A stretch of 64,000 nucleotides of DNA from a virus. Below, one piece after another: positions 20,083 to 49,160 of the stretch. The stretch's first letter is position 1. The number at the start of each line of letters is the position of its first letter. The stretch spans positions 1 to 64,000 of IMG/VR virus record IMGVR_UViG_3300034418_007971. One strand, given 5' to 3'. The position numbers and the translations under genes were made by a program. The notes beneath the pieces were generated by a model that saw only the letters and a program-made list of their open reading frames with translations, ran no database searches and was not told the origin of the DNA.

Positions 20083-20091
20083 TATAAATAT
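20083..20091 (-). promoter_or_regulatory. Phage late-type motif ATATTTATA
   Basis: Reads ATATTTATA on the minus strand, 20 nt before the start at 20062. Confidence 0.45.
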
Positions 20092-20110: not shown

Positions 20111-20359
20111 ATGGAAGAAAATAACGAAAACGTAAACACTCTATTTAATACTATTAATTACAAAGAACCACACGAACTAAATAAGTTTATAGATGAAATG
20201 AATGTAGACCAAGCGTTATTTTGTTTGGTTCATGCCACTCGACATGCACACAACCGTGGTTTGTACAATATTGAAGAATCTGAAGTTGTGTCTAAAGCTA
20301 TAAGAACTCTGACTACACCCCAACCTTTACCAAAGGAAGAGTCTAATGACGAAGGATGA
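20111..20359 (+). CDS. Small hypothetical protein
   Basis: 82 residues, acidic, helical, with a His-rich helix (FCLVHATRHAHNRGLYNIEE). Divergent from the Lys/Cys-rich gene. It overlaps the next gene by 14 nt. Function unknown. Confidence 0.65.
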   Translation: MEENNENVNTLFNTINYKEPHELNKFIDEMNVDQALFCLVHATRHAHNRGLYNIEESEVVSKAIRTLTTPQPLPKEESNDEG

Positions 20360-20549
20360 ATTAACGAGTAGAATTATTATTCTACAGTCTGAAATAACAG
20401 ATGCGATTTTAAGTGGTCACAAAGCACATGATGAAGATGAATTTAAATCACATAGAATCGAATTAATGATACTTCGTTGTATGTTATATGGTGAAGATTC
20501 TAAAATCTGTAAAACTGAAAAGGCAAATTGTAGAAATTGTAAGAAATAA
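20346..20549 (+). CDS. Small hypothetical protein with C-terminal Cys cluster
   Basis: 67 residues, helical, ending in CKTEKANCRNCKK, three Cys that could bind a metal. Overlaps the preceding gene and is followed directly by a strong terminator. Function unknown. Confidence 0.65.
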   Translation: MTKDELTSRIIILQSEITDAILSGHKAHDEDEFKSHRIELMILRCMLYGEDSKICKTEKANCRNCKK

Positions 20550-20598: not shown

Positions 20599-22383
20599 TT
20601 ATCTTAACTCTCTTAGGTCGAATGTTCTAACACCATCAACTGTAATCTTACCGTAGAAACGGTTGTTCACCATCTTCTTAGCGTATCTTGTCATGATACC
20701 CTTGATTGGTGTAAAGTTGAATGGGTTGTACATTGTTGGAGTCAACTGTAGAGGTACGTATGGAGCGTATACATATCCTGTGTCAAGTAATGATGAACCC
20801 TTGTGTCCCAACAATACTGTGTTTGGTGGGAAGTATGGGTCACGGTAAACTTGATATCTACCTGATAATGTACCAACTCTTTCGATACCCATGTTGTAGT
20901 TGTCCTGGTCAGGAGCCGCGTTTGAAACGTGGAAGTACTCAAGGTCATCGAAGATTGCTGAAATCTCTGAAGATACAACAATCCAGTTAGCACCACCTCT
21001 TAGAGTTGATTTATGGATTTGTGCAGAAATCTGATTGATTGCAGTAATCAATGTCTGATTCCAATCCTTTTGGTTGTAGTTGACAGAACCGTTAGATACT
21101 CTCTTCCAACCGTTGTAGTCCCATCTTAATGACCAAGCTGCACCTTTTCTTAAGTCTCTTAAAATCTCACGGTCAATCTCTGCAGCTACCTGCTCTGACA
21201 ACAATGCTGTCAATTCAGCTTCCGCGTCGATGTTGTGGAATGCAGAGACGTCTTGTGCGAGTTCTGGTGACCACTGAGCTCTTAACTTTCTTTCTGTAAC
21301 AGAAACAGTAACAGCTTCTAAGTCGAATGAAACTTCACCGATAGCGTCTTCAAATTCTAATGTCTCATAAACTCTGTATGAACCAACGAAGGTATCTCCT
21401 GATGCAATTGTTGAACCTGTGTATCCGTCTAATGACTGTGTTCCAATCTCAACTGGAGTTGAGAAATCAACCTCCAAGTAGATTTTACCTTCAACATCAC
21501 ATACATTGTCGTACTTTCCGCCAGGACCAGGGTAAGAACCACTATAGAAAGTAGTCTGTTGCTCGTTACCATAGTTAACGATACCCTTACCGTACTTCTG
21601 AGTTACAACTCTAAAGTTATAATAAGTGTCAGTAGCGCCGGTTTTGTAAGTTTCTAATGATGCTAAGAAGTCCTCAGTATCCATTTCTTGTCCGTCAGGA
21701 CCTATTAATTTACTAGCACCTGCTGATGAGAATCCTGTCATCATAAAGATTAATGACCTTACGTTTGCACTTGCTGCAGTACCTGTACCACCAGACGCGT
21801 AACTTAAAGCAACATCTAGTGTAGTTGCGGTTAAAACACCGTTGTTCCATCTAACAGGAACTAATGTTGGTGTTTGCTCTGCGTAAGCACCCTTCGAGTA
21901 ATCGAACAACCCAGCTGGGTCTGAATTTGGTGTACTACCTTCGTAGAAACGGTCATATAAGTTAGTTGAATTTGTGTAACCTGAATCTGTTGTTGATGGA
22001 CCGTTTGGTGCTCCGAATGGAGGAATGTGAGTTCCATCAGCGTTTCTGTTCTGAATCTTTGGAACAAAGTAGAACAACTTACCGATTGGTAGGTTCATAG
22101 CTTGAACTGAAACGATGTCGTTAGCCAATAACTTAGAGAAAACTCTTCTTACGATTGGGAAAACAACTGTTTCGAAAGAACCTGAACTGTCAGATGCCGC
22201 CGCTTCGTTTATCAAATATGATGCTTGGTTCTCATATAACTGAGCCATATTTTCTTTAGTGTGGCCTTTAAGACCATCGAGGAACCCTAATTTGTCCCAC
22301 TTGTTAATTGTGTCCTCCTTGATAACCTTAAGGTGCTTAAGACCGATGTTACCAACTAGACCTGATTCTAATAATGCTCCCAT
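20599..22383 (-). CDS. 23: Major capsid protein (T4 gp23-like)
   Basis: 594 residues. HK97-fold capsid subunit of T4 type. The first 60 residues form a helical propeptide (KEDTINKWDKLGFLDGLKG... NMAQLYENQASYLINE) ending at LINE|AAAS, which matches the [LI]-x-E cleavage site of the prohead protease and the position of the gp23 processing site. Downstream, VVFPIVRRVFSKLLANDIVSVQAMNLPIGKLFYFVPK corresponds to the T4 gp23 segment around VRRAIPNLIAFDICGVQPM. The C-terminal half contains the YNGWKRV and RYQVYRDPYFPPN strands. Last gene of the head module, 28 nt after the scaffold gene; codon use is less AT-biased than its neighbours, as expected for high expression. Confidence 0.93.
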   Translation of the reverse strand: MGALLESGLVGNIGLKHLKVIKEDTINKWDKLGFLDGLKGHTKENMAQLYENQASYLINEAAASDSSGSFETVVFPIVRRVFSKLLANDIVSVQAMNLPIGKLFYFVPKIQNRNADGTHIPPFGAPNGPSTTDSGYTNSTNLYDRFYEGSTPNSDPAGLFDYSKGAYAEQTPTLVPVRWNNGVLTATTLDVALSYASGGTGTAASANVRSLIFMMTGFSSAGASKLIGPDGQEMDTEDFLASLETYKTGATDTYYNFRVVTQKYGKGIVNYGNEQQTTFYSGSYPGPGGKYDNVCDVEGKIYLEVDFSTPVEIGTQSLDGYTGSTIASGDTFVGSYRVYETLEFEDAIGEVSFDLEAVTVSVTERKLRAQWSPELAQDVSAFHNIDAEAELTALLSEQVAAEIDREILRDLRKGAAWSLRWDYNGWKRVSNGSVNYNQKDWNQTLITAINQISAQIHKSTLRGGANWIVVSSEISAIFDDLEYFHVSNAAPDQDNYNMGIERVGTLSGRYQVYRDPYFPPNTVLLGHKGSSLLDTGYVYAPYVPLQLTPTMYNPFNFTPIKGIMTRYAKKMVNNRFYGKITVDGVRTFDLRELR

Positions 22384-24165: not shown

Positions 24166-24888
24166 TTAATAACCTAAATAATCGGAAAGTCTTTTCATTA
24201 AGTCAACACTTTTACCTAAACCACCATCAATCTTTGGTTCTTGTGACCTTAACTGAGTCTCTTCCTCTAAACTTTCTTCATACTTACCCTTATCATTTTT
24301 ATCTAAGAATAGATATGCACCTGGTGTAGATGGAGATGAAACTAAATCAAAACAGATTAATTCAAAATCGTCTTGTACTTCATTTCTTTCACCTTTCTTT
24401 ACTAATGAGCCAACACCACGAGAAGAAACACCCATAGTGACTCCTTGTCTCATTAAATTAGCCGCTTGGTCACCTGGACACGAAACTACACCCTCTGTAT
24501 GAAATCCAGGTGATGTCAATAATTTAATCTTTCCCATAAGTGTGTTACCTTCCCACCATACGTCTGTGATTAAGTGTGAGACACGGTCCAAATCTATCAA
24601 AGATGATTCAGGGTGGTTAAGTTCAGATATTGATAATCCTTTTTCGATTGCTTTTTTATAAACGTCAGCTTCTCTACGTAAAATCTTTTCAGGATACACT
24701 CTACCGTTTCTATTGGGGGTATCGTATTTTTGTAACGTCGCGTAAAACTCAAATGGTTTTGAATGGTCTAATTGACCATAAGACTCTTTTATAACTTGTG
24801 AATTACGGCTATCGTTAGGATTTACAAATCCGGCATCCCACTCTACTAAGATACCTTTACCTGAATCGTTTGGTCCTAAAATCTTCAT
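24166..24888 (-). CDS. 21: Prohead maturation protease (gp21-like)
   Basis: 240 residues. The T4-type serine protease pattern is visible: catalytic His in SELNHPESS (about 95), catalytic Ser in GVTMGVSSRGVGS (about 153-158), and a further conserved block ELICFDLVSSPSTPGAYL. Preceding strands FEFYATLQKYDTPNRNGRVYP are typical of the fold. It should cleave scaffold, capsid protein and packaged proteins after [LI]-x-E during head maturation. Position between portal and scaffold matches T4 gene order. A late-type motif lies 10 nt upstream. Confidence 0.9.
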   Translation of the reverse strand: MKILGPNDSGKGILVEWDAGFVNPNDSRNSQVIKESYGQLDHSKPFEFYATLQKYDTPNRNGRVYPEKILRREADVYKKAIEKGLSISELNHPESSLIDLDRVSHLITDVWWEGNTLMGKIKLLTSPGFHTEGVVSCPGDQAANLMRQGVTMGVSSRGVGSLVKKGERNEVQDDFELICFDLVSSPSTPGAYLFLDKNDKGKYEESLEEETQLRSQEPKIDGGLGKSVDLMKRLSDYLGY

Positions 24889-24908: not shown

Positions 24909-25352
24909 TCAGACCACTTCTTTTGTCGTTTTACTCTTGTGTATTTCAAAATACTTCATACCTCTTAAGCAATCGGTATACACTGCTTGAATGACTTTTT
25001 TAATATTTTCTTTTAGTTTTGTTGATTTAAAATCTAAGTGATTTTTAAGATATAAGGTGATTTCTAAGTTCATAAAACTTCTTTTACCTCTTTGTATTCC
25101 ACTACTTCTTAAATCTAAATCCACTATATTATGTTTTTCGAAAACTTCGGTATTTAAAACTTCTAATAAGACGTGTTTAATATTACGCTCCATAGTCCCT
25201 GTCGCTCTATCCCAATTCTCAAACTCTTTTATGGGTTCTACCCATGATTGTAAAACAATATAAACTGTTTTTAAATTTTTGGCATCTACTGTACCGTAAT
25301 AACATTTTGAGTCATTGAATATTTTTAATTGTGACGTTTTTCCTTTTTTCAT
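24909..25352 (-). CDS. Unknown protein in the head module
   Basis: 147 residues, mixed alpha/beta, basic N-terminus (MKKGKTSQLKIFNDSKCYYG). Contains LKTVYIVLQSWVEPIKEFENWDRATG and a long charged strand SFMNLEITLYLKNHLDFKSTKL. Lies between the bS21 gene (opposite strand) and the protease gene. I do not recognise it; a small head or assembly protein is plausible from position. Confidence 0.6.
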   Translation of the reverse strand: MKKGKTSQLKIFNDSKCYYGTVDAKNLKTVYIVLQSWVEPIKEFENWDRATGTMERNIKHVLLEVLNTEVFEKHNIVDLDLRSSGIQRGKRSFMNLEITLYLKNHLDFKSTKLKENIKKVIQAVYTDCLRGMKYFEIHKSKTTKEVV

Positions 25353-25424
25353 ATAAATTCATACTTACAAAGTTTATTGATTTGTATTAAATATACTATA
25401 TTTGTAGTTATATGTCAAAAACAT

Positions 25425-25433
25425 ATATTTATA
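25425..25433 (+). promoter_or_regulatory. Phage late-type motif ATATTTATA
   Basis: Plus-strand ATATTTATA 17 nt before the bS21 start. A host-like TATATTTG also occurs at 25397-25404 but without a TTG at the right distance. Confidence 0.4.
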
Positions 25434-25450
25434 GATAAACAAATTTATAT

Positions 25451-25636
25451 ATGCTAATTATTAAGGTGAAAAATAAGAATATAGAGGCGGCTCTTAAAAA
25501 CTACAAATATAAAGTTTACAAGACTAAGCAACTTCAGAACCTTAATAAAAATAAGGAGTACACAAAGGATTCAGTGGAAAAAAGAGAAAAAATGAAAAAA
25601 GCAATTTATGTGAATAAGAAGAGAAACGACCTTTAA
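25451..25636 (+). CDS. rpsU: Phage-encoded ribosomal protein bS21 (Bacteroidota type)
   Basis: 61 residues. MLIIKVKNKNIEAALKNYKYKVYKTKQLQNLNKNKEYTKDSVEKREKMKKAIYVNKK follows the Bacteroidota bS21 pattern (MLIIxIK, N-I-x-x-AL-K-x-YK-x-K-x-x-KT, SV-x-KR, K-A-x-Y). bS21 sits beside the anti-Shine-Dalgarno end of 16S rRNA and, in this phylum, helps to hide it. A phage copy could replace the host protein and change which mRNAs are translated. It is placed alone on the plus strand inside the minus-strand head module. Its own leader shows no Shine-Dalgarno sequence. Confidence 0.88.
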   Translation: MLIIKVKNKNIEAALKNYKYKVYKTKQLQNLNKNKEYTKDSVEKREKMKKAIYVNKKRNDL

Positions 25637-25649
25637 GAGTTAGAATACA

Positions 25650-25880
25650 TTATTCTTCAACTCCTTTACTTCTTGAAAATTTTTCAAGTGTGGTAAATCC
25701 TAACCCCGCACCTACAATATACATCATACCGTCCCACACATATTTTTGTAACGGTATATCCATAAAAATGTTAGCAACAAAGGCAATACACATCATGAAA
25801 AATGCGATTATGGTAACAAACCTTTTTGATGACTTTTGACCATCAACGTCACCTAATAATGATGTAAAAAATCTTTTCAT
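25650..25880 (-). CDS. Small two-TM membrane protein, holin candidate
   Basis: 76 residues. Two hydrophobic segments: VTIIAFFMMCIAFVANIFM (about 22-40) and WDGMMYIVGAGLGFTTL (about 49-65), with a charged C-terminus. Size and layout fit a class II holin, but such proteins also occur as structural membrane proteins. It overlaps the upstream gene by 1 nt. Another candidate of the same kind is at 44892. Confidence 0.55.
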   Translation of the reverse strand: MKRFFTSLLGDVDGQKSSKRFVTIIAFFMMCIAFVANIFMDIPLQKYVWDGMMYIVGAGLGFTTLEKFSRSKGVEE

Positions 25881-26659: not shown

Positions 26660-28540
26660 TTAGTCATTTAGAAGTGAATTCAACTTTTTTTCTATTTCAC
26701 CTAAAGACTGTCTACCTTTAGATAAGTCTAATATACTTTTACCTTTTATTAAGTCGTCCTCGACTAATAAATCTAAGTCTTTATTTCTTACTAGTCTTTC
26801 GGTTGGAGTTTCTTCGGGCGCAGTGTCTCCCCCTCCTTCATCACCACCTAAATCACCACCTAAATCACCACCTAAATCACCACCTAAGTCACCACCTAAG
26901 TCACCACCTAAGTCACCACCTAAGTCACCACCTAAATCACCTGTACCTGAATCAGTTGTTTCATCACCTAATGGGTCACCTCCTTCACCTGGTTTATTAC
27001 CATATAGTTTATCTATATTTGCGAATACACCAGTTTTACTAATAACTTCGGATGTCTTTTCAAGTTCGGCAGCAACCGCTTTTTCGATTCTTTGTTGTTG
27101 TAAGTCTAATTTAATTTCCTCGTCACTAAAACCAAGTATGTGCTTCTTAGCCCAAGATGAGGAAACGGGTAAGATACCAGTTCCTGGGTCAGTAACAGCA
27201 TCTCTATATAATTGAATTTTTTGTTGCCATTGCTCAACTTTGAGTAAGTCCGCTTGTGTAGAAGGATTAGTAAGACCTAAAGTAAAATTACCTAATTCAT
27301 CTTCAAAACCTAAAAGGTAAAGGTGTATAATTGCAATTTTATTTAGTTCTTGAATCATCGACTTTTGAATTCTGTTTATAGTTCTAGCAAATCTTATATC
27401 CTGTAATGATAAGTTTTTACCGTCACCAACAACCTCTTCAAATCCTAAGAATGCTTTGGGTACTCTTAGAGATGTTAAAAGTTTCTTCTGAATGTATTCT
27501 ATATCTGCAATTTCAGATAGGTTTTGTGCACCTGGCAATGTATCTATAGGGTTAGGTGCGTTAGGGTCTCTAACGGGAATAAAATAGTCTTGGTCGACCG
27601 CCATTTGATTGTATCTTAAATCGACATTTCCGTTACTCGAATCTACAACTTGGTCTCTCTTAAATTTGTTTGCCACTCTATTTACGTATGGTTCAACATC
27701 CTTGTCGTCCATATTTCCAACAAATACTTTAAATACTCTTCTTTCAGGTGCTCGCGATGTTCTATAGATTAACATGGCATCTTCTGATAGTATTAACTGT
27801 TTCCAAATTCTTCTACCTTTTTCCAACATAGATGTCCCGTATGGTAGTTTTCTATCGTCACCTAATAATCTAAAGTGAGCAATCTCCCAAGTATTAAATT
27901 CCATGTCTTTATTTTGCCATAAAAACTTTAGCGCATCATTCTCCGTATTTGTTGAGTTACGTTCAGGCTTCATTTTCATACCTCTCTCCTGTCTATTAAT
28001 CTCAATATTAGGTAGTTGTTGTGCACCCATAATACCTTTTTCAGGGTCTAATTTCAGATAAACAAAATTGTCACCATACTTACATGTATTTCTTGTCCAC
28101 ATAGGTAAGTTAGTATTAATATCTAATCTGTTATTAAACAAATCACCTAAAACAGATTTAATTCTTTTACTTTCCGAATATATCTGTAACATATAACCGT
28201 CTTCATCGGGAGTAGTAGATTCTTCTGAGTATATATCTAAGGCGGCGGAAATTTCAGGAGTATACTCCATACTTTCATAATCATAAAAGGAGGCTAAACG
28301 AGTTGGTTCATAATAAACTGCTTGTGTATAAAGATTGTTTTCAATCTTTTGCCATTGTTGACCTAAATAAAGGGTTTGTTGTGCTTGTAACTTCTCTCTC
28401 TCATACTCTTGTTTATTAGTTGTCTTGAGTATTTGTTTTTTGTCGAAGTTATATACGGGTGGTTGTTGGTCCAAAGTTGAATCGGGACCAAATACTCTTG
28501 TTAACCTTTGCCAAATCGTATAATTATTCTTTTCCGCCAT
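26660..28540 (-). CDS. 20: Portal protein (gp20-like) with Gly-Asp-Leu repeat tail
   Basis: 626 residues. Dodecameric portal through which DNA enters the head. The T4 gp20-type core covers about residues 40-510, with blocks such as PTRLASFYDYESMEYTPEISAALDIYSEEST, GDNFVYLKLDPEKG, WEIAHFRLLGDDRKLPYGTSMLEKGRRIWKQLILSEDAMLIYRTSRAPERRVFKVFVGNM and LLTSLRVPKAFLGFEE. From about 538 to 570 the chain is a repeated GGDL tetrapeptide tail followed by an acidic C-terminal region (LVEDDLIKGKSILDL). The repeat is not part of the portal fold. Confidence 0.92.
   Translation of the reverse strand: MAEKNNYTIWQRLTRVFGPDSTLDQQPPVYNFDKKQILKTTNKQEYEREKLQAQQTLYLGQQWQKIENNLYTQAVYYEPTRLASFYDYESMEYTPEISAALDIYSEESTTPDEDGYMLQIYSESKRIKSVLGDLFNNRLDINTNLPMWTRNTCKYGDNFVYLKLDPEKGIMGAQQLPNIEINRQERGMKMKPERNSTNTENDALKFLWQNKDMEFNTWEIAHFRLLGDDRKLPYGTSMLEKGRRIWKQLILSEDAMLIYRTSRAPERRVFKVFVGNMDDKDVEPYVNRVANKFKRDQVVDSSNGNVDLRYNQMAVDQDYFIPVRDPNAPNPIDTLPGAQNLSEIADIEYIQKKLLTSLRVPKAFLGFEEVVGDGKNLSLQDIRFARTINRIQKSMIQELNKIAIIHLYLLGFEDELGNFTLGLTNPSTQADLLKVEQWQQKIQLYRDAVTDPGTGILPVSSSWAKKHILGFSDEEIKLDLQQQRIEKAVAAELEKTSEVISKTGVFANIDKLYGNKPGEGGDPLGDETTDSGTGDLGGDLGGDLGGDLGGDLGGDLGGDLGGDLGGDEGGGDTAPEETPTERLVRNKDLDLLVEDDLIKGKSILDLSKGRQSLGEIEKKLNSLLND
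26841..26940 (-). repeat. 12-nt tandem repeat encoding GGDL units
   Basis: About eight copies of a 12-nt unit (plus-strand form TCACCACCTAAA/G), with only A/G variation at one position. A coding microsatellite in the portal gene that could expand or contract without loss of frame. Confidence 0.95.
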
Positions 28541-28583: not shown

Positions 28584-30359
28584 TTATCTTCTTCTACCTC
28601 CAAATAACCAGTTATATTGTTCGTAATCTTGTTTTGTGATTCCATTTGGTCGGTAGTGATTGTTATTGTTTGGCATGACGGGTAAACCAGGATTAAAGTC
28701 TTTAGATGAATTTTTAACAGGAGTTTCATTGACCATCCAACTCTCCATCATCGCCTTGGTCTGTTCAGTAACCTTTTCAAGTTGTGTAAATGAGTTTTCA
28801 CCAACATATATCGCCATAGCCATTGCCATGATAAGGTCGTCGTGTTGCCCTTTAATGTGGTCAGGTCTTCCGTTAATATATACAAACGTATTTAATTCAT
28901 TCATTAAACGAGAAGAACGAACAATAAAGTTATGTCTTAAGGCTTCTTCAAATGACGCAACAATTTGAACACGTTTTGAATTAAAATTAAGACCTGGTAT
29001 TTTTTCTATCGCTTTTGGGTTGTATTTCCATTTGTCAGCAGCATTTATACCATCAACATACAAATCCTTATAATTCATTTCCTGAAGTTTACGAGCGGTA
29101 GAAACTCCCATACCCCCAGTGATATCAATCACAACAAACGCAGAATACATAGTCGCCCATTTAAACGCGACTTCAGCGGCAACATCAGGTGGTACCTTAC
29201 CCAAATACTCTAGTACCTGTTCTCTCTCATCAAAATCTATAATACAGAATGTTGTAAAGTCCTCACTATCACCACGAGAAACATCAATACCCATAATATA
29301 TTTGTGACCCACCACAGGTTCTTTCCATTGCCATAACGCACCCCCCATAAATTTGTTTTCAGGTTCACGAATAAAGTTTTCCTTAATTTTTTCTACCGTA
29401 TCAGAAGGAATAACATTGTCACCCGAACCCAAGAAATTACACTCTAATTCCTGTGCAATCTTACGTCTGTCAAACTTAAGTTTTTTAGCCATACCCTCAA
29501 ACCATGATGAATATGGTTTGTACCCATCCAAGAAATGTGTTTTTATTTCTTCAAAATCCCTTTCCATGGGATTTATATGTGAATAATCTAATGTTATCTC
29601 TTCATCTTTATAGTCTTCTCTATTCAACATATAATGAACAATATCATTACACTTAATTAATTTTAAATCTCTTGCATATCGAGGGTCACGGTACCAAAAC
29701 ATTTCGGTAATCTTAAAGTCATTCATACCTCGTAATGATTGGTCATAAATAGAGTAATATATACGGTCAAAACCGTTAGGTGTTGATATCACAATCACTT
29801 TACCACCTGTAGAAAGTGATGCCATACACGCAGACCAAAAATCGTTATCCGCTTCAATAAACGCGGCCTCATCAAACACAAGTATCGTGGGGGTATATCC
29901 ACGAAGTGCGTCTTTAGAAGTTGCCACTGACTTTACCTCACAACCATTAGTAAGTTTGTAATGCCTTTGTGAATTCTTTTCATTAGAAAAATCAACACCG
30001 AACCAAGAAGGCCATTGCTCTATAAACGCACGAATTTTACCCGCCATCTCGACAGAGGTATCAAGTTTGTTAGCGATTATAAGTATTTTCTCAGGTTTAC
30101 TTTTAGATGCGGTTACTAATTTCTTTGATACCCATGCAGATGTTACTGTTGATACACCCGCTTGTCGATACTTTAATGCTATATTCTCTTCAAACTTATC
30201 ATAATCCTTAATTAAACTTTCTTGGTCAGGAAATAATCTTAAAGGTACATATTTTGACTGTGTATTGTCATAAGTCTGTAGATATGTTCTTAACGCATAC
30301 GAGGTGTCTTTAACACACCTCGCATACTCTAATAATACTTTTTCTCTAGTTAACGCCAT
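28584..30359 (-). CDS. 17: Terminase large subunit (gp17-like)
   Basis: 591 residues. DNA packaging ATPase and nuclease. Walker A variant RQAGVST at 65-71 (the classic phage R-Q-x-G form), Walker B ILVFDEA at about 159-165, followed by the coupling segment VIVISTPNG. The nuclease half has YIMGIDVSRGDSEDFTTFCIID (first acidic residue), VVIDITGGMGVS, and GQHDDLIMAMAMAIY with the last Asp. This is a complete motif set. First gene of the portal-capsid group in transcription order, following the acidic protein at 30380. Confidence 0.96.
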   Translation of the reverse strand: MALTREKVLLEYARCVKDTSYALRTYLQTYDNTQSKYVPLRLFPDQESLIKDYDKFEENIALKYRQAGVSTVTSAWVSKKLVTASKSKPEKILIIANKLDTSVEMAGKIRAFIEQWPSWFGVDFSNEKNSQRHYKLTNGCEVKSVATSKDALRGYTPTILVFDEAAFIEADNDFWSACMASLSTGGKVIVISTPNGFDRIYYSIYDQSLRGMNDFKITEMFWYRDPRYARDLKLIKCNDIVHYMLNREDYKDEEITLDYSHINPMERDFEEIKTHFLDGYKPYSSWFEGMAKKLKFDRRKIAQELECNFLGSGDNVIPSDTVEKIKENFIREPENKFMGGALWQWKEPVVGHKYIMGIDVSRGDSEDFTTFCIIDFDEREQVLEYLGKVPPDVAAEVAFKWATMYSAFVVIDITGGMGVSTARKLQEMNYKDLYVDGINAADKWKYNPKAIEKIPGLNFNSKRVQIVASFEEALRHNFIVRSSRLMNELNTFVYINGRPDHIKGQHDDLIMAMAMAIYVGENSFTQLEKVTEQTKAMMESWMVNETPVKNSSKDFNPGLPVMPNNNNHYRPNGITKQDYEQYNWLFGGRRR

Positions 30360-36599: not shown

Positions 36600-38621
36600 A
36601 TGATAGAATCAGTAGACCCAAACGATAAAGGACCAAGAAAAAAGAAAGAACAACAAAGTTCATCTAAGACCCCTGTACTAGACAATTTTTCGAGGGACTT
36701 GGTGAAACTAGCTTCAGAAGGAAGACTTGACCCTGTAATTGGTAGGGACAGTGAGATTAAAAGAATCGCTCAAATTCTTTCTCGTAGGAAGAAGAATAAC
36801 CCAATTATTATTGGTGAGCCAGGTTGTGGTAAAACCGCAATTGTAGAAGGTTTAGCTATGAAAATTTTTGAGGGTGATTGCCCTCAAAATCTATGTGATA
36901 AACGACTCGTTTCTTTGGATATGACATCTATTGTTGCAGGTACTAAGTACCGTGGACAATTTGAGGAAAGACTTAAGGTAATTCTTGATGAACTTCAAGA
37001 TAATCATGATATTATTATTTTTATCGATGAAATTCACACAATTATTGGTGCAGGTAATACCTCAGGTTCTTTAGATGCATCCAACATCTTTAAACCCGCA
37101 TTGGCTCGAGGTGAACTACAATGTGTAGGTGCAACCACCCTCGATGAATACCGTGAGAATATCGAGAAGGATGGTGCTTTGGAACGTAGATTTCAAAAGG
37201 TAATGGTTGACGGTTCAACTCCTGATGAGACTTTAGAAATTCTTCAGAACTTGAAGTCTCGTTATGAGGACCACCACAAGGTCGTGTACACAGATAAGGC
37301 ACTTCAGACGTGTGTAACACTTGCGGACCGTTATGTTACCGATAGGGAATTCCCTGACAAAGCAATCGATATTATGGATGAGGTTGGTGCTCGTGCACAA
37401 ATCAACGTTAAACTTCCTGAAATCATCGAAGAACTTCGAGCAGAAGCCCTTGAAATTAAAGATAAGAAGATTCAGGTTGTAAAGAGTCAGAAGTACGAGG
37501 AAGCTGCTCAACTACGTGACCGAGAACGTAAGATTATCGAAAAACTTGAATATGAGAAAGAAAAGTTTGATTCAAGAAAAGATGAGGAGCGTAAAGAAAT
37601 CACCGAAGAAATGATTTACGATGTAGTTTCACATATGACTAAGATTCCTTTATCTAAATTAAATGCAGACGATAAGGAGAGTCTGTTGGATTTGGAGAGT
37701 AACCTTAACTCATCTGTAATTGGTCAAGAAGCCGCGGTTAAGACGATTTCAAAAGCAATTCGTAGAAACCGTGTGGGTATTAAAGACCCAAGTCGTCCAA
37801 TCGGTTCGTTTATCTTCTTGGGCTCCACAGGTATTGGTAAGACACACTTAGCCAAACAATTGGCAAAAGAAATTTTTGGTGATGAGGATTCGTTAATCCG
37901 TGTTGACATGTCTGAATACCAAGAGAAATTCTCTATGAGTAGATTGATTGGTTCCCCTCCTGGTTATGTTGGATATGACCAAGGTGGTCAGTTGACCGAA
38001 GCAGTCAAAAACAAACCATACTCAGTAGTATTGTTTGATGAGATTGAAAAGGCAAATAAAGACATCTTCTCAATCCTCCTACAAATGATGGATGACGGTC
38101 ACCTAACAGACTCTTTCGGTAGAAAGATTAATTTCAGAAACTGTCTGATTATTATGACTTCCAATCTTGGTGTTAAGAAACTACAGGACTTCGGTTCAGG
38201 TGTTGGATTCGACACTACAACACGAATCTCAAATAACGAAGCAATGAAGAAGGCTTTGTTGGAGAAAGAGTTGAAAAATCACTTCACTCCTGAGTTCTTG
38301 AATCGCGTAGATGAGGTAGTAATCTTCAACCCACTAAGAGAAAATGAAGTTGAGCAAATCGTAGAGATTGAATTGTCTAAACTAGACCGTAGACTCGACC
38401 GTCTCGGATATGAAGTGACCATCGACAATAAAGTTAAGAAGTTCTTATCAGAAGTAGGTTTTGATGAAAAATATGGGGCAAGACCAATTAAACGAGCAAT
38501 TCAAGAGAAAATCGAAGATTTGATTTCAGAAGAAGTTCTTAGAGGTAATATCACAGAAGGCGTACCTTGTAAACTGAAAATGAAAGGAAAAGAAGAAGTA
38601 GTTTTAGAAAAGGGGAAATAA
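36600..38621 (+). CDS. ClpC-like Hsp100 AAA+ unfoldase lacking the N-domain
   Basis: 673 residues with two AAA+ modules. D1: Walker A GEPGCGKT at 72-79, Walker B FIDEIH at 141-146, arginine-finger region ALERRF. D2: Walker A GSTGIGKT at 408-415, Walker B LFDEIEKA at 478-485. A UVR motif ([18 protein letters not shown]) occupies 292-309, the place of the ClpC middle domain. The tripeptide VGF at 535-537 sits where ClpC/ClpA carry the ClpP-docking loop, so it can probably dock on host ClpP. The usual ~140-residue N-domain, which binds adaptors, is missing and replaced by a short polar start. It should unfold proteins for degradation, perhaps with altered choice of substrate. Confidence 0.9.
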
Positions 38622-43764: not shown

Positions 43765-44150
43765 GGGGGCGTTTTTGGATTTGACTGGTACAGTCAGGCA
43801 CAGAGTGCACGTAGTGAGAGGTTACCTATCACTTTAATACATGGTTACAAAACACAAACGGCGAAACTTTCGCAAAACTTCAGGCAGTCGGTTTACTCCG
43901 CACTGAAGAGGTTTACGCAGCCTAAGGCTCCGTTTACCGCGGGTCGGTCAGGACATATACCTAGGAACAGAAGTCCGTTGTTGAGGTGGAAAGGTGACTA
44001 AACCCTAAATTGAGTCACACATCTGTTGGTGGTAGAGGATGTTAAAATTCAACCACATATTTCGGATTGTTGAGAATCAATAATGACCTAAACGTGTAGT
44101 ACTCTCTGTTTGGGGTATACAGGACGGGAGTTCGAGTCTCCCCGCTTCCA
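43765..44150 (+). ncRNA. ssrA: tmRNA (transfer-messenger RNA)
   Basis: 386 nt, normal for tmRNA. The ends form a 7-bp acceptor stem: GGGGGCG at 43765 pairs with CGCTTCC near the 3' end (two G-U), followed by the discriminator A. The 3' part carries a T arm GGGAG-TTCGAGT-CTCCC, and the 5' end has the GGATTTGACTGG segment of tmRNA D-like regions. A reading frame from GGC at 43860 to TAA at 43923-43925 gives a 21-residue tag starting GETFAK and ending EEVYAA. Bacteroidota tags start with GE and end in AA, but are normally about half this length. CCA is not encoded in full (CTA follows). Rescues stalled ribosomes and tags the product for proteolysis. Confidence 0.93.
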
Positions 44151-44157
44151 CTAAAAT

Positions 44158-45761: not shown

Positions 45762-48700
45762 ATGCTTTTAACTTTTTTAAGGAATTTATTCCTTCTTACA
45801 CTCCCCCTGTTCCTATTTAATGGTAACTTAGGGGCTCAATGTGACGTTTTTATAGAACAAGGTTCTGTAGTCGTTACTGATAATGGTAGTGGTGTCAAAT
45901 TTCAGTTTGATGTTACTAACAATTCAGGTAGTGAATGGGAAGGGGATGTACTTAAAATGTATTGGTCACTTAATTCAAGTGCACCTATATGGACCATAGA
46001 TTATACCTCAAACAACAATGTTGGACCCTTACCTCCTGGACAAACTAGGACAATAACCACCCCATGGTTCGACATTCCAAATCTCCCTTCATGGTTTCCT
46101 GAAGACCCCGGTCCGGGTGGTGACTTGGACGATTATTGGGTCGAGGCTTTAGAATGGCCTTATTGGTCTGCAAATCCAAACGGTTTTGATGGGACGTGGT
46201 CGCAAATGAATCTACGTCTCGGAAGTTGTGGTTTGGGTGATGGTGCGTGGGTATATAACGATAACGGTGACCCTTATTATGGTCCTTTTAATAGTGATTG
46301 TCCCGATGTAAATAATGATGCGTTTTGTGATTGTGATGTTAATTTTCTTGGGTTTGACCCCGAAACGTATGATGTTAGTGTTGAGGTAGTATCTCACTGG
46401 AATTGTGGTACTTCTTTAAATACCAGTGGTTTTTCGAGTGAAATGGATTATGTCAATATGATTCAAATCGGTGCTCATGTACCTGGTTGGGATTATCCGT
46501 GGGGTTGTACTGCAGCTCAGTACCATTTAGGATGGACGTTTGATAATCCTGTAGCTTTTGAAGAGTTTTATGCTGGTGACACAATTAATTATAATATGTT
46601 TTCAGACGATACATTCTATGATGATTGTTTTCAGGAAATATTAGAAAGTGATACTTTAACTTCATGTTTAGAGATTGTTTTATGGCAAATTAATTATTCT
46701 GAAACCGCGATTGTCGGTGAGATAGATGGTGGATGGGCGGCAACATGTGGTACTTGCGCGAACCAAACTCAATTTTACCCTGATATGTCTATGGAGTTAA
46801 ACTCAATGAATATTTGTAATGCACCACCTCCATTGTATCCTGGTTGTATGGATTCAGATGCTGAAAATTATAACCCTAATGCGGGATATGATGATGGTTC
46901 GTGTACATATCCTCCCATTCTTGGGTGTATGAATCCAATTGCATGTAATTATGATGTTAATGCAACTGAAAACTATGGATGTATAACTTGTGAAACACCT
47001 TATGAAGAAGGTCTTGCGTGTAATGAGTTTCAAAATTCATCTAGCTATTGGGATTGGTATTTATCTGTTTTTAACTGTAACCAAGGATGTACAGACCCTG
47101 AAGCAATTAATTATGATGAAAATGCTGAAAATGATGATGGGTCATGTGAGTACGATACGATAACTTCACCTGACGCAAGTGGATACGTATCATTTTTAGG
47201 TACTATATGTAATAACGGTATACCATCTAACGAAGTTAATATATTGGTGATTAACCCCGATACGGGTAGTTTTGACGCTACTGATACCTTATTTAACTAC
47301 TGTGTTGAAGTACCTGAATTAGGGTTGGATAGTTGTCTGTACGGTGATGTTAACGCTTCCGATTATATGTTACCAGGTGAAGGTCAGGTAGTATGGAATG
47401 TTATTGTACCTAACTATATAACACAATTAACAGTAAATGCGTATTATGCTGAAGGTGAGATTGATGAAAACTCTTCTAATAATACTTACTTTTATTCAAA
47501 TCTTATTCAAGACCCCGATGTATGTCCCGTATTAGGGTGTACTGACCCTATTGCTGAAAATTATAATCCGTTGGCAACTGAAGATAATGGTAGCTGTGAA
47601 TATATGGTCGACCTATCATTAGATAGTGTAACTATAAACGAATACTGTGACGGATTTACCCCATACTGGATTCCTACAATACATCTTAACAATTTAACTA
47701 ACCCTGCAATAAATGAGTACTGTATTAAAATTCAAGTCTTAGGACAAACAAACGATACTATCTGTTTTAATGCAATGGGTACAACAATTAATTCATTCGG
47801 TGATATTTCATTAGAATGGCCCGAACCAATATACTCATATGGTACTGTTAGTATTCATGTTTTAGATGTTAATGGTGAAAGTCCTAACTCATGGGAAGAT
47901 TTCGGAGAAGATGATAACATCAGTAATAACATGTTAGTTTTGACTATCGGTAACCCTACTATTAATTGTGACGTTTTAGGATGTATAGATGAAACCGCTA
48001 ATAATTTTAATCCTAACGCAAATATAGATGATGGAAGTTGTACCTATGATATTACAGAATTAAATTATTTAGGGTCAGAATGTACGGTATATTGTGACCA
48101 AACAGGTCCTTACTATTACGTCACCTCCACCTTTCAAAATACGGGTAATGTTACAATTACTGATTTTTGTGCTGAGTGGAATGTAATTGGGGGTGAGGAA
48201 GAGATAGAGTGTTTTAATGGAGTTTTAGAACCTAATCAAACAGTAACTTTAGAATATGGTCCTATATACACTGATGGTAGTGGTGTTGTATGGGTCTATT
48301 TACAAGAACTAAATGGTGTTGTTTTAAACCCTGAAATAGGATTTACAGAAACATTGTTCTGTTTATCAGAAGCTGAATCAATTTGTATTTATGGTTGTAC
48401 AGATAATGAAGCGAACAATTACAACCCTGATGCGGACTTGGATGATGGGTCTTGTCAATATGATGTCTTTGGTTGTACGGACCCTGAAGCTAACAATTAC
48501 GACTCGACCGCTAACGTGGACGATGGCTCTTGTACTTATGACGTATTCGGTTGTACAGACCCAACCGCAAATAATTATAACCCCTTGGCTACGACCGATG
48601 ATGGAAGTTGTACTTATGATATCTATGGGTGTACTGATTCAAATGCAAATAACTTTAACCCGAACGCAAACGTGGATGACGGTTCTTGTGAATATGATGT

Positions 48701-49160
48701 ATTTGGGTGTACTGATGAAAGTGCTAATAATTATAATCCGTTGGCTAACGTAGATGATGGTTCATGTGAATATGACGTTTATGGATGTACGGACATGAAT
48801 GCTATTAACTACAACAGTGATGCAAATATAGATAACGGAACTTGTATTTATCCTGGTCCTTGTGATGAGTTCGATGGTCAAGCGTTCGCACCAAACGCAT
48901 TTAGTCCGAATAATGATGGTTTGAACGATTCTTGGGGTGTCATTACAGATGAAGAGTGTTGGAACTCATGGGAAGTGTTAATCTTTAACAGATGGGGTCA
49001 AATAATATATGAGATGAATAACCCATCTGATAGATGGGATGGTAGTTTTAGAAATGGTGAGTATTATGTTGAAGACGGTGTATATGCTTATACGTTACGA
49101 GCTGTGGCATGGAATTTGGAGACTATAGAAACTACAGGTTTCATAACCGTTCTCAGATAA
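45762..49160 (+). CDS. Type IX secretion cargo, CHU_C type B sorting domain, Cys-repeat adhesin-like
   Basis: 1132 residues. A Sec signal peptide (MLLTFLRNLFLLTLPLFLFNGNLGAQ) is followed by a Trp-rich beta region (to ~350). From 361 there are eleven copies of a Cys motif of the form GCTDxxAxNYNPxAxxDDGSCxY; the last six are in tandem at 878-1031. Residues about 1041-1132 are a CHU_C/gliding-motility type C-terminal domain (FAPNAFSPNNDGLNDSWGV, WEVLIFNRWGQIIYE, DGVYAYTLRAVAW, ending GFITVLR), the signal for export through T9SS. The same Cys motif occurs in exported proteins of Bacteroidota. It should end on the infected-cell surface or be shed. A phage copy is striking. Confidence 0.88.
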   Translation: MLLTFLRNLFLLTLPLFLFNGNLGAQCDVFIEQGSVVVTDNGSGVKFQFDVTNNSGSEWEGDVLKMYWSLNSSAPIWTIDYTSNNNVGPLPPGQTRTITTPWFDIPNLPSWFPEDPGPGGDLDDYWVEALEWPYWSANPNGFDGTWSQMNLRLGSCGLGDGAWVYNDNGDPYYGPFNSDCPDVNNDAFCDCDVNFLGFDPETYDVSVEVVSHWNCGTSLNTSGFSSEMDYVNMIQIGAHVPGWDYPWGCTAAQYHLGWTFDNPVAFEEFYAGDTINYNMFSDDTFYDDCFQEILESDTLTSCLEIVLWQINYSETAIVGEIDGGWAATCGTCANQTQFYPDMSMELNSMNICNAPPPLYPGCMDSDAENYNPNAGYDDGSCTYPPILGCMNPIACNYDVNATENYGCITCETPYEEGLACNEFQNSSSYWDWYLSVFNCNQGCTDPEAINYDENAENDDGSCEYDTITSPDASGYVSFLGTICNNGIPSNEVNILVINPDTGSFDATDTLFNYCVEVPELGLDSCLYGDVNASDYMLPGEGQVVWNVIVPNYITQLTVNAYYAEGEIDENSSNNTYFYSNLIQDPDVCPVLGCTDPIAENYNPLATEDNGSCEYMVDLSLDSVTINEYCDGFTPYWIPTIHLNNLTNPAINEYCIKIQVLGQTNDTICFNAMGTTINSFGDISLEWPEPIYSYGTVSIHVLDVNGESPNSWEDFGEDDNISNNMLVLTIGNPTINCDVLGCIDETANNFNPNANIDDGSCTYDITELNYLGSECTVYCDQTGPYYYVTSTFQNTGNVTITDFCAEWNVIGGEEEIECFNGVLEPNQTVTLEYGPIYTDGSGVVWVYLQELNGVVLNPEIGFTETLFCLSEAESICIYGCTDNEANNYNPDADLDDGSCQYDVFGCTDPEANNYDSTANVDDGSCTYDVFGCTDPTANNYNPLATTDDGSCTYDIYGCTDSNANNFNPNANVDDGSCEYDVFGCTDESANNYNPLANVDDGSCEYDVYGCTDMNAINYNSDANIDNGTCIYPGPCDEFDGQAFAPNAFSPNNDGLNDSWGVITDEECWNSWEVLIFNRWGQIIYEMNNPSDRWDGSFRNGEYYVEDGVYAYTLRAVAWNLETIETTGFITVLR
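48393..48854 (+). repeat. Six tandem GCTD...DDGSC repeats in the T9SS cargo
   Basis: Six units of about 26 residues each, joined by short YDVF/YDIY-type linkers. Third-position divergence between units is high, so these are old duplications, unlike the near-identical repeats in the portal and scaffold genes. Confidence 0.9.

Follow-up and report, generated by a model that had tools for sequence, protein, structure and literature searches.

In ribosomes of Bacteroidota, the anti-Shine-Dalgarno (anti-SD) sequence lies in a bS21/bS18/bS6 pocket, where Tyr54 of bS21 stacks on A1534 (PMC9976891). Ribosomes without bS21 read rpsU better and start poorly on mRNAs that have no Shine-Dalgarno sequence (SD) (PMC9976891). 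Autoregulation of rpsU depends on an extended SD, and depletion of bS21 in Flavobacterium johnsoniae leaves reporters without SD unaffected (PMC9976891). Bacterial bS21 in Flavobacterium decides whether the ribosome reads an SD, and host rpsU is coupled to the bS21 state. A phage bS21 gene wired differently would be a natural test of viral takeover of translation by a swap of bS21, and a phage-driven exchange has been put forward as a speculation by McNutt et al. (PMC9976891).

Genes encoding bS21 are known from freshwater myoviruses of Bacteroidetes. According to Chen et al. 2022 (PMC9723584), these phages express bS21 together with structural genes, keep the aromatic residue at position 54, have complete genomes of 293-331 kb and carry a conserved neighbour of bS21 on the opposite strand (bS21_CN, fam498). 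The bS21 of pelagiphage HTVC008M enters E. coli ribosomes, where translation is impaired rather than redirected (Mizuno et al. 2019, PMC6375957).

The window analysed here is a stretch of 64,000 nt from an IMG/VR virus record of 71,488 bases (IMGVR_UViG_3300034418_007971). Its bS21 locus merits follow-up because of the comparison across phages: a host-type SD is never present, a promoter-like box is found instead, and one sub-group of relatives carries a short SD specific to bS21.

A bS21 gene of Bacteroidota type in a phage head module

The open reading frame (ORF) at 25451-25636 on the plus strand (61 aa, ATG start, TAA stop) is a real, selected bS21 gene of Bacteroidota type, as the original prediction had it. 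Its translation, MLIIKVKNKNIEAALKNYKYKVYKTKQLQNLNKNKEYTKDSVEKREKMKKAIYVNKKRNDL, matches the Pfam profile PF01165 (Ribosomal_S21) with an E value of 5.6e-9 and 36 bits against a curated cut-off of 27, residues 4-55 aligning with positions 2-54 of the 55 in the profile. The closest relatives of solved structure are ribosomal bS21 proteins of Bacteroidota (9i5v and 7jil, the latter from F. johnsoniae). Alignment with host-type bS21 gives 39-43% identity and places Tyr53 on Tyr54 of F. johnsoniae, the aromatic that stacks on the anti-SD. The predicted model has two helices (residues 11-33 and 40-60), with a pLDDT of 82.7 and a pTM of only 0.40. The ORF is not a chance one, since relatives of 73-100% identity are kept in 39 IMG/VR contigs and purifying selection is strong: the median dN/dS is about 0.04 in the 14 measurable pairs among nine close relatives, with synonymous sites saturated or nearly so in most pairs. 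Invariant or nearly invariant in 30 sequences are A14, L15, K16, K19, K21, T25, K39, R45, K50, A51 and Y53.

On both sides of bS21 lie head genes on the minus strand, namely the terminase large subunit (terL, 28584-30359; phrog_2, E 1.8e-38), the portal protein (26660-28540; phrog_213, E 2.6e-65), the prohead protease (Peptidase_S77, 24166-24888; Pfam and PHROG) and the major head protein (MCP, 20599-22383; phrog_138, E 1.8e-66). The gene had been described as alone on the plus strand in this module, which is nearly the case, but two small plus-strand ORFs lie in the same module at 20111-20549. The first of them (82 aa) is kept in the relatives L013 and L020, with a dN/dS of about 0.05 against L020. 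A bS21 relative with 82% identity sits on a 270-kb contig.

The convergent neighbour (25650-25880, minus strand, 76 aa) shows weak Pfam and PHROG matches only and has no assigned function; a downstream neighbour on the minus strand is found for 76 of 87 distinct bS21 proteins. The divergent neighbour (24909-25352, minus strand, 147 aa), also of no assigned function, is conserved and adjoins bS21 in 257 of 285 phage loci, the others being mostly contig ends or more distant phages. Its protein follows the pattern M.KGK...YGTVD...LKS.Y...IVDLDLR.SGI...KSFMNLE and gives a confident predicted mixed alpha/beta model (pLDDT 88). Profile searches assigned it to no Pfam or PHROG family, and Foldseek gave no clear fold match (best E 6.5e-3, poor overlap). 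A type III secretion chaperone fold, the top match of a second fold comparison, was considered and rejected, as the values obtained (Z 8.3, rmsd 3.7, 99 aligned residues) are in the range common for unrelated folds.

Elsewhere in the window, a phage tmRNA lies at 43765-44153 on the plus strand (RF00023, 99.4 bits against a gathering cut-off of 47). Its tag of 21 aa, GETFAKLQAVGLLRTEEVYAA as read by ARAGORN, is unlike the Flavobacterium host tag GENNYALAA. A tmRNA is also present in 16 of 23 long related phage records, and wherever ARAGORN gives a reading the phage tag is conserved (GETFAKLQSIGLIQTEEVYAA and the like); a narrow literature search returned nothing on phage-encoded tmRNA tags. Near the tmRNA, a Clp-type double AAA+ ATPase is encoded at 36600-38621 on the plus strand (phrog_4871, E 9e-246; ClpB_D2-small, AAA_2). 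Together with the tmRNA and bS21 it makes up a set of translation and protein-quality genes, and it bears on a speculation in the literature, namely a possible degradation of host bS21 by phages. A protein of 1132 aa (45762-49160, plus strand) has at its end a CHU_C domain, a type IX secretion signal (63 bits); such a domain is not expected in a protein of a phage and fits a host from the Bacteroidota.

Leaders and promoters of phage and host bS21 genes

For the detection of SDs, the 25 nt upstream of each start were paired with the 3' end of 16S rRNA from Flavobacterium (UCACCUCCUUUCU). This is the stretch 1532-1544 as used in McNutt et al. 2023 (PMC9976891). A pairing of -13 kcal/mol, the published mark of autoregulated rpsU, served as the threshold for a host-type SD. 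No SD precedes the bS21 gene of the window, in agreement with what had been predicted: the best pairing in the 25 nt upstream is -0.4 kcal/mol, and -1.8 kcal/mol with an alternative anti-SD of the UCUCA type. The leader RNA shows no unusual or stable structure (z -0.04). Among 92 distinct protein/leader combinations from phages, a number that includes the probable host DNA L309, none is at or below -13 kcal/mol and eight reach -7. L309 was discarded as phage evidence, since its bS21 groups with host proteins in the tree (77% identity to F. johnsoniae bS21) and the tmRNA on its record has a tag resembling that of hosts. Within the window, 69 of 73 genes are weaker than -7 kcal/mol (median -0.9), so that SD-less starts are the rule in this phage and not a special device. 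As a control, the same pairing measure taken 60 nt further upstream gave 8 by chance.

Host rpsU was claimed to depend on an SD and on feedback, a premise that holds for Flavobacterium but not for the order as a whole. Leaders of rpsU in Flavobacterium are strong in 55 of 55 distinct cases (-18.4 to -21.6 kcal/mol). In a wider sample of the order, rpsU reaches -13 kcal/mol in 17 of 70 genes, which is no population estimate, the sample being partly hand-picked (30 best-scoring genes and 40 chosen from a list, with genomes of endosymbiont size left out). The SD premise is therefore lineage-dependent, and the host of the window phage may be one without an SD-controlled rpsU. Six further genes of the sample carry TGAGATG before rpsU, which fits the alternative anti-SD known from relatives of Chryseobacterium. 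In this same non-random sample, many Flavobacteriales with small genomes (L367-L436) are without a strong rpsU SD (53 of 70), and strong SDs are fewer than one would expect from the roughly 80% of the order given in the literature.

Upstream of the phage gene, at 25426-25433 on the plus strand, motif statistics point to the box TATTTATA as a probable -10-like element of a phage promoter for bS21. The SD-less, unstructured stretch between box and ATG (25434-25450) measures 17 nt, which is also the median distance from the end of TATTTAT to the ATG across distinct upstream regions of bS21. Of 75 such regions, 62 contain TATTTAT, its spacing to the ATG being nearly constant; shuffles give 13, and the other strand gives 5. 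Throughout the window there are 21 copies of TATTTATA; it stands within 50 nt upstream of 16 of 74 genes, against 1.5 in shuffles and 3 in reverse orientation. Sense copies shortly before an ATG are found on both strands (e.g. at 20083, 23839, 24899, 25426, 26627, 41649, 52648 and 53988), and head genes, including the protease and the gene in scaffold position, are preceded by the box. As a statistical motif, the box is a putative phage-specific promoter element, probably a late one. None of the window proteins searched was recognised as a phage sigma factor, and nothing usable on promoters of Bacteroidota phages was found in the literature.

On the opposite strand, the divergent neighbour has a promoter with TTGACA as -35 (25413-25418) and, after a spacer of 17 bp, TATATT as -10 (25390-25395). 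The arrangement TTGAY (TTGAC in the window), 17 bp, TAnnnT is present in 70 of 75 distinct spacers between the two genes. As the spacer diverges while the hexamers and their distance hold, promoter selection is favoured over mere recent common ancestry. The GTCAAAA conserved upstream of bS21 is the reverse complement of TTTTGAC at this -35, which explains its conservation, and we rejected it as an element of the bS21 mRNA. By the same token, a role of the upstream block TATGTCAAAAACATATATTTATA in bS21 regulation, be it as a leader peptide (MSKTYIYR) or as an RNA operator, is highly improbable. The block is kept in close relatives, and some of its changes are silent in the MSKTYIYR frame; however, this frame is broken in L007 and L040 and altered by insertions in L036 and L038, GTCAAAA shifts relative to box and ATG in distant relatives, and the structure of the leader RNA is ordinary.

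A sub-group of relatives, with 65-80% identity to the window bS21 over the matched part, carries AGGAG at the right distance before bS21, with pairing of -7.3 to -9.5 kcal/mol (L036, L037, L083, L105-L107 and L108-L110; genes e.g. at 2071-2256 in L036, 671-853 in L083, 626-811 in L105, 1108-1293 in L107 and 2501-2686 in L108). Pairing this strong is seen in 0.3-2.7% of shuffled leaders. Among 36 other genes on these contigs one reaches -7, as compared to 5 of 5 distinct bS21 leaders (Fisher p 8e-6, the five leaders being related). In L038 the upstream block is as in the sub-group and the leader is shorter by about the SD stretch, and in L119 the AGGAG is degraded to AAGAG; gain or loss of the SD has thus taken place inside a single phage group. 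The tree of these 61-residue proteins is weakly resolved, and we make no claim on gain versus loss or on the number of events. Since close relatives of the window phage carry a short bS21 SD, its absence is not a fixed trait, and freedom from feedback cannot therefore be essential to the phage strategy.

Phage bS21 and the host feedback

We favour, as moderately probable, a phage bS21 expressed from its own promoter, without SD and free of feedback, which replaces the host protein and keeps the anti-SD hidden. Transcription would start from the TATTTATA box at 25426, which is shared with head genes, and the short SD-less mRNA would be started on by ordinary, replete host ribosomes. Such a message would lie outside the SD-dependent feedback by which Flavobacterium keeps rpsU in check, and phage bS21 would be made whatever the number of ribosomes already equipped with bS21. 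This escape is an expected consequence of the behaviour of SD-less reporters in F. johnsoniae, which ignore bS21 depletion. The bS21 site of the 30S subunit is exchangeable, and the phage and host proteins would most likely compete for it. Conservation of the C-terminal region speaks for an anti-SD that is kept hidden rather than freed; together with Tyr53 this region would keep the 16S tail sequestered, SD-less phage mRNAs would still be started efficiently, and ribosomes carrying phage bS21 would damp host rpsU.

The reading of SD absence as an escape from feedback, as originally predicted, stands in so far as the extended SD needed for rpsU autoregulation is missing, but it is weakened by the fact that SD-less starts are the default both in this phage and in Bacteroidota. 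On this ground, bS21 might be ordinary cargo that tops up the protein when many ribosomes are needed, SD-less like nearly every phage and Bacteroidota gene, its lack of feedback a by-product without selective meaning. With -0.4 kcal/mol the gene is close to the window median, and a strong rpsU SD is absent in most sampled members of the order as well. However, rpsU is the exception in Flavobacterium, and a phage copy acquired from there would have lost its very strong SD; none of the 92 leaders reaches the host type, and a sub-group that regained or kept an SD specific to bS21 suggests selection on the SD signal. We regard the cargo explanation as rather unlikely. The sub-group leads to a further proposal, which we make tentatively and hold to be more doubtful still: the family may be split, most of its bS21 genes being SD-less, driven by a phage promoter and indifferent to the bS21 state of the ribosome, and the AGGAG of the sub-group serving to sense or exploit bS21-free ribosomes, which could read it best.

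Specialised ribosomes, in which an altered N-terminal helix of phage bS21 would shift mRNA choice to phage messages, appear unlikely. In the alignment the window protein differs from that of F. johnsoniae at Arg21 (Y), Phe23 (V), Asp24 (Y) and Thr28 (Q), positions that overlap divergent ones named by Chen et al. 2022 (PMC9723584). These positions vary between phage clades, however, and phage leaders have no feature besides the missing SD, which is common to host mRNAs. The SD-less and SD-bearing leaders of bS21 among close relatives are a ready-made pair for reporters in F. johnsoniae.

Comparison with known bS21 systems

The gene and its setting are of a known kind, since the same arrangement was described by Chen et al. 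2022 (PMC9723584). Its phages share with the window a bS21 of Bacteroidota type with an aromatic at position 54, encoded antisense to terL, portal, protease and MCP within their module. By its position on the opposite strand beside bS21, the conserved divergent neighbour is a candidate counterpart of bS21_CN. The leader and SD of phage bS21, in contrast, are examined here and not in the part of the earlier study cited here. The control sequences of phage bS21 have apparently not been compared across such phages before, and no link between the idea of bS21 exchange and phage leader sequences was found in the literature searched.

Pelagiphage HTVC008M (PMC6375957) likewise encodes its own bS21, for which entry into E. 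coli ribosomes was shown. The two differ in that HTVC008M infects a host of another phylum and E. coli ribosomes use SDs. With the autoregulated rpsU of F. johnsoniae (PMC9976891), the phage gene shares the protein family and the conserved C-terminal Tyr. Unlike rpsU, it is without an extended SD (-0.4 as compared to -18 to -22 kcal/mol) and has a phage-type box of its own, and the autoregulatory element is therefore missing from phage bS21.
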